From positions 30,041,453-30,105,452 of the forward strand of contig CM067343.1 in assembly GCA_034190875.2 (NCBI GenBank): a DNA stretch of 64,000 nucleotides, in the 5' to 3' direction. The stretch is from Urechis unicinctus. Lineage: Eukaryota > Annelida > Polychaeta > Xenopneusta > Urechidae. Shown in pieces: positions 54,451 through 64,000 of this stretch (within the stretch, counting starts at the first letter, position 1; each line of letters starts with the position of its first letter). The notes under the pieces are model-generated. The model worked only from the letters and a program-made list of their open reading frames with translations. It did no database searches and was not told the origin of the DNA. The translations under genes and the position numbers were made by a program.

Positions 54451-55878
54451 GTTCATTGCCGCGCCACCCAGCGGCCGTCGCGTAATTGCGCCTCTTTTGG
54501 CGGAAACCACATTTGACGCGCTGCAGTATTTTCGCGCCCGGTGCGCCCGCGTCTGCGCTGCAACGAGTTGATTTCAAAGTAATTCGTGCGCACATAGCGA
54601 CTAGAGTCTATTTGCAACATGCTATGGATTCACATTCACATAGCATATATCAAATCTTTTGCGAGATGATGCGGAGGCATCTGGGTGAATGAGGTTAAAT
54701 GAATAAGATTAGGTAATGTACAACTATAACAAGTTATCGCTTTAGAATTCCTGAAGAACTATGATTAGCGATAAATATTTAAGTGTCATAACATACAAAC
54801 TGGTTAACCAGCGATTTATCTGTTTCAGCCGGACAAACTGATGTTAGCGGGTACTCTTTTAGCTGAGAGTTATTAAATGCGACTCAGCCTATTCAATCTT
54901 TGATCTCTGCTGAATACAATTTAAAGCGCGACATTTCTTCTTGAAACATCGCATGATGCTTTGTTTGACCGTCAAGCATCGCGTTACCACAGAGCTTTCA
55001 GCATAATTGAATGGAAGATTGACAGCAGCATCACTGCGGCTAATCGAATCATTCTACAGTAGGAAGGTGATTGGAGACAAGCAGTTTGACGCCCGTAGAC
55101 GATTGATTGGATAGAGGGGCGATAAGCGAGCATGATGAGTCACTACCGTTAGCCATAACGTAGCTACGATTGCGTTAGTGCGTGGTGACCATATTTGTCA
55201 TTTGTTTGTCCAGAGTCTCTTAATATCTTACATTCTGACGAGACGTTACGTTGTACGTGAAATGATCCGATGACGAGGACAGTCTGTAGCTTCCAGGGTT
55301 TCAGCTTAAAGTTGAGTCATGTCAGTTAACCACTGGTTATAGAACGGTTTGAAAATGTTGATATGGAAATAGACAGATAGTGAGCCGACTATCCTCGAAC
55401 CTAAAATCTGAACCAGATGCACTTTCGGTATTGCCCATATCATGAAAATGACAATATTACACATGAATGTGCAATATATCAATGTTCTAGGGTGAACGAA
55501 GAGCTATTTGGACTGCATAACGTATTGTTCATAGCTGTGCTCTTAACAGTGGACTTGTACTCTATGCTTTTGGAATATATCAGGGATGTTCCTTGACACA
55601 TTGTGGCTGTGTAGGTGAGGCTTACCGGGGATTTCTGATAAATCTATTACGAAGTAGTATGAGCCAAGTGTACGAATGTTTATGGCTATCCAAAACATAG
55701 CCGCGTAGCTGTTATAAGTCTGTCTGCGCGACACGCACACACAAATTTGGTATTAGTAGAACACATAAGATAGGGATAGCATATATGGATGAGAAACTCC
55801 TGGGCACCAGATCAGTCATCTTTGTGCTGATGAGGTTCAATCAACCTAAGAATCGAAGGTTTAGATGGAAACATGAAT

Positions 55879-55996
55879 ACATATATATATATATATATAT
55901 ATATATATATATATATATATATATATATATATATATATATATATATATATATATATATATATATATATATATATATATATATATATATATATATAT
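55879..55996. repeat. AT dinucleotide microsatellite in unit 1
   Basis: A run of about 118 bp. The equivalent place in unit 2 (60003-60022) is only about 20 bp long, so this locus accounts for much of the size difference here. Confidence 0.97.
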
Positions 55997-57319
55997 TTAT
56001 ATAAACACACACACCCACATCCAACCCAACCCCCCACCCCCACCCTCACTCTCAGACACATAATCGAAGTTATGAAACATTATCGTTAGGTTCCTTATGG
56101 GGAAGTATTCACTATTTACAAAATAACTGTCAGAGAGATTCGAAGCTCCCTGTACATAGAATTACGTCGTTGAGTCGTTCGATCGATTTGACTGCGACCA
56201 TCTTGCTGCATGTAATTATCTACTTAATTCAAACGGTCATAATCTGTGGCTGGTCAGAAGTTGTAGATCAGCACCCTCAATGATTGCTTATTTTCCTAAC
56301 CAGGCAACCTCTCCCTACTCCCACGCCCACGTCCGCTACTTTTTGCAGGACTTTATTGTGCTATTCAATACGTCGTTGGGTCAGTCGGCATTTGTTTTTT
56401 AATATGATTGTCTCACAAAAATCAATAGGCACATGAAATCAATGCTCCCAGTACATATAATAATGTCATCTAGATGTTGGGTCGATTTGACTGCCACCAT
56501 CTTGCTGAATGCAATTATCGACTGAATTTCTTTTGCCATATGTTGTGGCTGGTCACAAAAATCAATAGGTATATGAAATGATTACTTCGACATTCGTTTC
56601 GTTAACGCTGAAAATGATTATATGATCTTGCAGGTAACTCAAGAAGGCAATGTCAGATTTTCCGACTTTACAAGATGTAAAGCATCTGTATTAATGTCCG
56701 TATTACATATGCTGACGGACTGTACGTGACCTGAATGCTATGAGTCATCGGAGTGCTTACACGAGTCCCGCATTACCCACGATATGGGGTATGAAACAGT
56801 ATTACCAATATCCTGGCTTTTTCAGTCAGGTCATCCACAGGCTGCGTTCCTAGAATGACACATTGGCTTTGTACTGTTGGACTGGTACAAGGAACATGAC
56901 GATCACATTAATCGATGGCCAACAATTCCCCTACAAGTGTTAACTGGCTTCCTGGTTCTTCTAGTCCAACTAGTCATCTGTGTCATACAATATGTTTGAT
57001 ACTATATTAGGATAAAAAGGAGGCTAGAAAATAAGACATCGGGTCTCGATAAGCTAAGGTCAGTGAGATGAGTCGGCATGAGATAAATAAGAGGTAAGCC
57101 GGCGTATTGGCTAATTGACTTGGAAGACCTATGGTGTGTATTGGTGAGTGGGCCAGATGGCACACACCTGAGAAGAATATGGATTGCTTATTACAGGCTG
57201 TTGTCATTGTAAAACATAAAAGGAATATTAATGACATTGAAGCTTTCTCAGCAAGATAAAACATCATTCGGTTTAGTGGATACGTTTATTGTCAGAGCAT
57301 ATTTTGGAGTGATACAGCA

Positions 57320-58318
57320 ATGTCTCTATATTGCCGTAGCAAGCATTGTCTCTGTATATCCTTATTTGGGCTTCTTTGTGTTACAGTGCTGTTTTATATC
57401 ACTATAAGTCTTAATCTTTATGAACATGTAACTCCTTTGTTGGAGCATAGAGAACTTAATATCGGACATAACACTCAGGATATACATTGCCTATTTCATT
57501 CATCGGATTCTCAAGTCAGCGCAAATGACACTTATCGCCTTGGTGAGATTTTCAAACAAGTCGACCACGCAATTTCCGACCCTCGTCTGCCCAGAGCTCT
57601 AACCCCAACCCTGTACAAGGATACGGTCACTTTTTTGTCCAAGGTGAGACAGGTTTTTACGGAGCATAACATTACGTGGACACTATCCTTTGGCTCGCTC
57701 CTGGGGAATGTATTATGCCATGATATATTGCCATGGGACGACGACTTGGACTGCTCTTTGCTGAAATCCGATTTGAATAAAGTCGAAGATCTCCACAAAA
57801 AGGGAATTCTGAAGGACAGTTACGGACTTGGATATAATATCGTAAATAAAAAGATGTTCGAATTATCTAAGCCTTTCATCAAGCCCTACCCATGGAGCTA
57901 CCCATTCATTAATTTTACACATTTGGAAATAAAAGACACTGTCGTCAAACTGACCGACTGGAGACGACCCAAACTTAACTATCAGGTTGATTTCGAACAT
58001 TACTTCCCATTGCGCTGGCGCCCATTTGCGGGTATGTGGCTGCCGGTTCCCAGGTATCCATAGAGTGTTCTGAACATGATTTACCCGGCACTGTCATGTA
58101 AAATGTCCACTTGGAGTCATACACAAGAACGATATCGTACAAATCCTTCCAAAACTAATTGCTCCTTCCTTAGATCTGCATACCCTAATGCCTATTTGAC
58201 GAAAAAAGGGAACATCGCTTTGGAAAAGCTTTATTTTGGGAATTCAACCTTGTATGATATGTGCATTGAAGATGATCATAATCAATACCGGGCGACTAAC
58301 GCCTTTTGGGAGGCTTAA
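57320..58318 (+). pseudogene. LicD-family type II membrane protein, copy 1 (internal TAG)
   Basis: The LicD/fukutin-type fold transfers phospho-sugar-alcohol or phosphocholine groups to glycans (family knowledge). The sequence has a membrane segment at residues 11-33, a lumenal stem with an NDT glycosylation site, then SFGSLLG (124-130 region) and LPWDDDLD (138-144), the catalytic DDD-type motif. At codon 248 (58061-58063) a TAG replaces the TGG of copy 2. The frame then stays open to TAA at 58316-58318, ending ATNAFWEA exactly as in copy 2. As read, it would give a 247-aa product lacking the C-terminal 84 residues. One nonsense change is the only disabling lesion seen, so it may be recent, polymorphic, or a sequencing error. 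Confidence 0.85.
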
Positions 58319-58373
58319 ATGCTCGTCGTATATTTCATTGTAAGAATAGATGAACCAAACACCACTGCTGTGC

Positions 58374-62179: not shown

Positions 62180-63090
62180 ATGCTCGTCGTATATTTCATT
62201 GTAAGAATAGATGAACAAACACCACTGCTGTGCAGGTAATATTCGATATTTTGAATCACATTATAAGTCTAACACTAGAATACGCCTGACTACTTGCCGA
62301 ATCATAAACAAATGGTGTCATTGGAATCATATATAACATAAAGAAACTTTGTATCAATGTGAAATTGTTTATTGAAAGACATTGTTTTATTCGCTTTAAA
62401 ATCCATATATGTACATGTAACCATGATTCTGTGCGTCCTAGTGAACTAAGCATTAATGTCACTGAAGTAGTACGTAATTTCGTCTTACAATAGATTTTTA
62501 ATTGATAATATATAAATATGCCTCCCTAAAGACGCGATGGGCGTATAACAGCTTATATGGTTTTTTGTCTCAAATATGTTTTGCCTGTAAGAGGTATGAA
62601 GATTGTTTTGTTGTCAATCAATACACACAGTATTGGTTCCATATCGTATTTTCATGGTGGATTAATTCTGACAAATGTCCGTGGTAAAGCCTTGATGTGC
62701 CAGATTAATTCATTTACCAGCGCTAGTTAAGGCCGTGTGTATCAACTGAAGAAATGCTCCACATCTAGCTAGGCCACTGTGAATGGACCAGAAGAGGACA
62801 TCGTAAGGAACCAGCCACACCATAAAACGAAACACAAAAGGATTAATGTGATATAGGGTGATGAAATACATTATTACCATATGTTATCGTGGATATGATA
62901 AAAGTATTTAATTTGATGAGTATCTTTGTCTTACTAGATACTTGGCAATGCTGATATAACAAGTATTGACATAAATCATAACGAGGAACATGACATGTGT
63001 GTGTCCAGTTTAGCAATGAGGGAATCACCTTAAGAATACGACGAAATGTAATAATTCGTACACAAACTTCAACTTCCCGATAATATCATC
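62180..63090. other. 3' flank of LicD copy 2 and unique spacer
   Basis: To about 62725 this is the duplicated 3' flank. From 62726 it is sequence without a counterpart in unit 1. No gene was recognised. Confidence 0.5.
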
Positions 63091-63102
63091 TACAGCACTG
63101 AT

Positions 63103-63232
63103 GATATATATATATATAGAGATATATATATATATATATATATATATATATATAGATATATATATATATATATATATATATATATATATATATATATATA
63201 TATATATATATATATATATATATATATATGTG
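63103..63232. repeat. AT dinucleotide microsatellite
   Basis: An AT run with two GA interruptions, ending in a short GT run. Confidence 0.97.
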
Positions 63233-63805
63233 TGTGTGTGTATTGTGACCATTGATTCTAGTACAATGATTGACGAATTGTTGACATGTTCAAAGGGGCT
63301 CTATTGGTTCTATCAAAGTTATAAGTAGCCACACTGTCAAAAATCACTCAGAGTTTATTTGCGAAAAGTCGAATAGCTTGTGAAAAAAGTAACGAAACAC
63401 AAACACGAGAGAGTCGTGGTATCTGAATCACATTATGACAATATAAAAATATTTCTTAACATTAATTTATGCGTTCATAATGCAATCAATGATCATGATG
63501 GCCAGCTGATGGTATATCGATGTCTAAGTACATTTGCCGGGTTGATCATCCTCAAATCGTTATTGTTTCTATTGTATACTTGTAGATATGTAACTGCCCC
63601 CACTGCTCTTTAAATATACGGCTACTATAACTTATGAATTAGGGTTCATCATAATTATCCCTCAATGCATAACAGGACGTGTGGCCTCATTTTGTATTGC
63701 ATGAATACCATTTGTAATAATGCAGCGTGACAGTCAAAAGCTGATTGATTTCTATAGTCATCCAACATGCAGGGATCTGTGTGAAAGAGAAATGAAAAGT
63801 ATCAG

Positions 63806-64000
63806 GAATACGAATTAAAGGGCGACATTTCTTCCAGAAGCATCTCAGGATGCAATGTTAGACTGTCAAGTATCGAGTTGACCATTACCACAGAGCTTTC
63901 AGCGTAATTGAATTGAAGATTTACAACAGCATCACTGCGGCTAATCAAATCCTTTTACAGGAAGGTGATCGGAGACGAGCTGTTTGACGCCCGTAGACGA
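63806..64000 (+). repeat. Tandem segmental duplication, unit 3 (start only)
   Basis: GCGACATTTCTTC, CAGAGCTTTCAGCG, GCATCACTGCGGCTAAT and TTTGACGCCCGTAGACGA recur in the order seen at 54928 and 59036. The window ends 195 bp in, so a third LicD-like gene may lie about 2.3 kb beyond the right edge. Confidence 0.85.

Follow-up and report, generated by a model that had tools for sequence, protein, structure and literature searches.

The right-hand end of a 64 kb stretch of Urechis unicinctus DNA (contig CM067343.1 of GCA_034190875.2, positions 30,041,453 to 30,105,452; here called the window) carries a tandem array in which each of two complete units contains a gene of the LicD family. The two units differ from each other in a mosaic pattern; the gene of the first (copy 1, 57320..58318) is interrupted, and that of the second (copy 2, 61184..62179) is open and matches the LicD family. 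The favoured explanation, which we hold at a probability of about 70%, is that a LicD/FKRP-type transferase gene underwent an older tandem duplication, and that gene conversion or unequal exchange would then have kept the gene part similar while the rest of the unit diverged, one member (copy 2) staying open and the other (copy 1) decaying.

The array was located by comparing the window with itself. A single repeated unit starts at 54893, 59001 and about 63806, giving spacings of 4108 and then 4786 bp, in agreement with an earlier note on this DNA that had placed three starts 4108 and ~4790 bp apart. Unit 1 (54893..58894) and unit 2 (59001..62731), on the forward strand like the other array features described below, share two long blocks, both with a blastn E value of 0.0, which excludes chance. 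The third unit (63806..64000) is cut by the window end after its first 195 bases, which match unit 2 at 87.8% and unit 1 at 82.8%. The array has at least three unit starts and runs off the end of the window, as had been proposed. No further copy of the unit was found to the left of 54893 in the window, either by self-comparison or by a looser blastn search with unit 1. The coding pattern PWDDD-x-D occurs twice in the window and in none of 100 shuffles. Homologous DNA extends about 2.4 kb upstream of copy 1 and about 2.2 kb upstream of copy 2, with some 0.55 kb downstream; the earlier figures of 2.4 and 0.5 kb hold apart from the shorter upstream part of copy 2. A perfect 40-base tandem duplication lies just past copy 1 (58373-58454) and is absent from unit 2.

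The junctions between the units are unlike each other. The unit 1/unit 2 junction (58896..59005) holds an extra 110-base fragment homologous to the unit-internal sequence 55552-55647, with a 15-base insertion, while units 2 and 3 are separated by a 1.07 kb linker (62732..63805, unstranded) that contains an AT microsatellite (63104-63229) and has no blastn match of at least 80 bases in the rest of the window. Uncollapsed haplotypes, joined end to end by the assembly, had been named in the earlier note as the artefact that would overturn the array. A divergence of ~3% over the gene does lie in the range of alleles of outbred invertebrates, but the three starts are unequally spaced, the window contains no N bases, and the dissimilar junctions make such an artefact very improbable.

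Divergence between units 1 and 2 is patchy. The conserved block around the gene (57109..58449) shows 32 differences in 1297 aligned columns (~2.5%), and the distal upstream region (55186-55877) shows 24 in 691 (3.5%). In the diverged upstream middle of unit 1 (56078..56931), the two alignable blocks differ from unit 2 at 50 of 283 positions (17.7%; 56086-56375) and at 67 of 306 (21.9%; 56612-56925), and 56376-56541 aligns at only 47–49%. The 3′ flank past 58450 differs at 53 of 448 positions (11.8%). When the differences were permuted, leaving out the microsatellite at 55878-56077 and the poorly aligned 56376-56560, none of 2000 shuffles gave an equally strong conserved block, and none of 2000 reached an equal between-window variance. 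The near-identity of the units seen earlier by eye is thus confirmed over the gene (~97%) but fails in the upstream middle and, at ~12% difference, downstream.

A single recent tandem duplication, with an upstream middle that was later altered by insertion or fast local change, would account for how alike the units are in the gene block (97.5% identity) and in the distal upstream part (96.5%). However, the middle blocks differ by substitution and not by insertion alone, the 3′ flank is also diverged, and one date cannot yield both 2.5% and ~20% without a strong difference in rate, which makes this scenario unlikely. Of the recent duplication that had been proposed, the tandem duplication of a LicD family gene stands, but not its derivation from one recent event, given a gene so alike between units with other parts ~20% apart. 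The apparent age thus varies from part to part of one unit, a pattern best explained by gene conversion or unequal exchange inside a larger array. Unit 1 also carries a duplication within its diverged middle (56140-56259 and 56439-56558, 91 of 120 bases identical). The unit 2 counterpart (60127-60246) matches the two halves at 100 and at 102 of 120 bases; with values so nearly equal, its pairing with one of them was set aside.

Copy 1 runs for 247 codons to an in-frame TAG (58061..58063), codon 248 of 333, after which 84 codons still match copy 2 with 94% amino-acid identity. The piece before the stop scores 38.4 bits against the Pfam LicD model (PF04991, cut-off 22.6 bits) over about 50 residues. 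The human muscular-dystrophy enzyme FKRP is related to LicD, and where its third catalytic aspartate (Asp416) aligns, copy 1 has an Asn codon (57911..57913). Judged from its sequence, copy 1 is probably a pseudogene. The expectation of one LicD gene in each of two complete units is borne out as to one LicD match per unit, but the first gene is incomplete.

Between copies 1 and 2, synonymous changes were counted at 8 of 225 sites (Ks 0.036) and nonsynonymous changes at 17 of 765 (Ka 0.023). Divergence at synonymous sites is far below that of the 3′ flank past 58450 (P 0.0003) and of both middle blocks (P 2.2e-7 and 1.9e-10), and does not differ from that of the distal upstream block (P = 1). 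These comparisons bear on whether functional constraint, rather than conversion, could have conserved promoter and coding parts around a middle that is an intron-like neutral stretch. The equal conservation of the distal block and the synonymous sites would suit this, as would the ACAG found two bases before the ATG in both copies, because of which a 5′ UTR (untranslated region) intron is possible in these genes. Constraint explains less well why synonymous sites share the low divergence even though one copy is broken, and we consider it rather doubtful as an alternative to conversion. The ATG is preceded by an in-frame stop at a distance of 20 codons in copy 1 and of 8 in copy 2, so the proteins begin at those ATGs unless splicing adds an exon. 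The gene had been described as intronless, which is true of the coding frame but may not be of the 5′ UTR.

Copy 2 is an unbroken frame of 331 aa with a PF04991 score of 35.2 bits, the match spanning only residues 115-164. A membrane helix is predicted near the N-terminus (residues 11-34, 61214..61285), where hydropathy reaches 2.5 over residues 11-29 and the structure model also has a helix, with low confidence. The active-site segment (residues 124-144, 61553..61615) contains an hGS motif and PWDDDLD, and Asp197 (61772..61774) aligns with FKRP Asp416. The hG[GS] motif and three acidic residues described for FKRP are present as FGS, Asp142, Asp144 and Asp197, within a predicted nucleotidyltransferase fold; the model thus predicts an FKRP-like fold in which the catalytic aspartate positions are kept. 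The N-terminal hydrophobic stretch and five N-glycosylation sequons fit a type II Golgi protein. Such an enzyme would hold metal ions by its aspartates and move a phospho-linked group from a CDP- or CMP-activated donor to a sugar, candidate groups being phosphocholine, phosphoethanolamine, phosphonate and alditol phosphate.

Several observations weigh against the favoured explanation of an open transferase gene kept similar by conversion. Residue 132 of copy 2 (61577-61579) is Ile, where all 21 aligned LicD relatives have Arg, as does FKRP in its own alignment with copy 2, and copy 1 has Leu at the same position. This departure from the family within the active-site segment slightly lowers confidence; it could mark a subfamily using another donor, or a weakened enzyme. 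The Arg of GxxR...PWDDD is a feature of this sample of 21 relatives rather than a known published criterion, and the available part of the FKRP paper does not name it (PMC6965139), so the weight of the change is uncertain. Asp197 is shared by no more than 15 of the 21 relatives. Ka/Ks between the copies is 0.62, which is not different from 1 (Fisher P = 0.33), and purifying selection is not shown. The low divergence of 55186-55877 could come from a constrained promoter or 5′ exon, and the stop in copy 1 might reflect a polymorphism or an error in sequencing. Two complete units are too few to read off which way conversion ran or how often. The selection for glycan diversity suggested in the earlier note finds no support in this Ka/Ks, which comes from two copies only, one of them broken.

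Outside the array, three single-frame genes encode proteins with an FkbM methyltransferase domain (PF05050), at 12897-13991 on the forward strand and at 16712-17929 and 22380-23414 on the reverse strand. They score 39.9–55.6 bits (cut-off 22.7), are 44–49% identical as proteins, and by eye each is hydrophobic over a stretch close to the N-terminus. They form a second, older local gene family, which could act in sugar O-methylation. The FkbM protein of 22383-23414 had no PDB sequence match at E values up to 1. Sub-cut-off matches of the array and FkbM proteins to PF23522, PF16316 and PF15122 (Pfam) and to NF052314 (NCBIfam) were set aside. Of two minisatellites, one repeats a 30-base unit (21900-22240) and the other a 41-base unit (23940-24242); the 30-base one has several open frames, and 140 bases separate it from the 3′ end of an FkbM gene. 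Several frames are likewise open in a (TACA)n microsatellite of about 119 copies at 44967-45446. Between 27880 and 48525 lie dispersed, diverged repeats, 67–77% identical and in direct and inverted orientation (e.g., 28884-29178, 34941-35255 and 40616-40909), which are perhaps old mobile elements. A Pfam scan of 10 further open frames outside the array gave a sole match, to DUF4487 (E 0.035, under the cut-off); two frames of 27880-48525 were covered, with one sub-cut-off match. Over the whole window, neither Rfam at its gathering scores nor a tRNA scan gave a match.

Relatives of copy 2 were sought more widely in searches from which the window's own genome was possibly excluded. Back-translated peptides gave 7 pattern matches in viral contigs and 27 in genome contigs, none of them confirmed, and among 50,697 phage records tblastn found no relative at E values up to 0.001. 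At that sensitivity there is no pointer to a bacterial or phage origin. The sparse genes of the window and its microsatellites look like those of an animal genome.

Mollusc N-glycans bear O-methyl sugars and, in one case, phosphocholine together with N-methyl-aminoethylphosphonate (PMC8699351, in part). Copy 2 might be one of the missing enzymes that add phosphocholine, phosphoethanolamine or N-methyl-aminoethylphosphonate to invertebrate glycans, in a glycan-tailoring neighbourhood where three FkbM-type genes ~38–48 kb away would contribute O-methyl groups beside the zwitterionic ones and the array is in flux by conversion and decay; this is a speculative proposal that we think unlikely. The array itself is ordinary in kind: a known enzyme family has expanded in tandem, with concerted evolution and decay among its members. 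Literature searches found nothing linking LicD with mollusc glycans, and nothing on invertebrate fukutin-type phosphotransferases or on LicD expansion in molluscs; the only match for FkbM expansion in molluscs concerned prasinoviruses, and a Nippostrongylus match for LicD was rejected as a hit on a file name, not a protein. For a glycan modification that still lacks an assigned enzyme, copy 2 is a fair candidate, and a compact open LicD gene beside a broken near-twin is a convenient one for testing.

Two characterised LicD-type enzymes and several animal gene families can be compared with the array. According to the part of the source available, FKRP transfers ribitol phosphate from a CDP-donor and has a stem (residues 45-287) followed by a C4 zinc-finger loop formed by Cys289, 296, 317 and 318 (PMC6965139). 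Copy 2 is too short for the GalNAc-transferase-like stem, with only ~60 residues, of low pLDDT (the model's per-residue confidence), between the membrane helix and the catalytic core. It also lacks cysteines in residues 58-132, the stretch expected to hold the last two of the zinc-finger loop, given that FKRP 313 aligns with model residue 93, and has Ile for the Arg of the active-site segment; Cys57, just before that stretch, might still take part in a metal site. For want of room for the stem and of the last two zinc-finger cysteines, copy 2 is not called an FKRP orthologue. Mf1 of Mycoplasma fermentans, which transfers phosphocholine from CDP-choline (PMC11982090, in part), has a WDDDLD-type Asp cluster in common with copy 2. 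However, the NCBIfam model for the Mf1 cholinephosphotransferase (NF045866) matches copy 2 only locally, at 31 bits, far under the equivalog cut-off of 225 bits, and copy 2 differs by its likely membrane anchor. The hG[GS] motif is described as absent from Mf1 relatives in the available portion of the same paper (PMC11982090), whereas copy 2 has it as FGS; at this site 18 of 22 alignment rows carry GT. Among animals, the rumen fluke Calicophoron daubneyi has 19 LicD genes where 17 flatworm species average 2.3 (PMC11727788, in part), and a LicD cluster of 94 proteins from 18 species includes 8 bivalve proteins and is called depleted in bivalves (PMC8059625, in part). Neither source, as far as its available text goes, describes tandem arrangement, conversion or pseudogenes (PMC11727788, PMC8059625); what these helminth and mollusc families have in common with the array is their multi-copy state, and they are likened to it by copy number.
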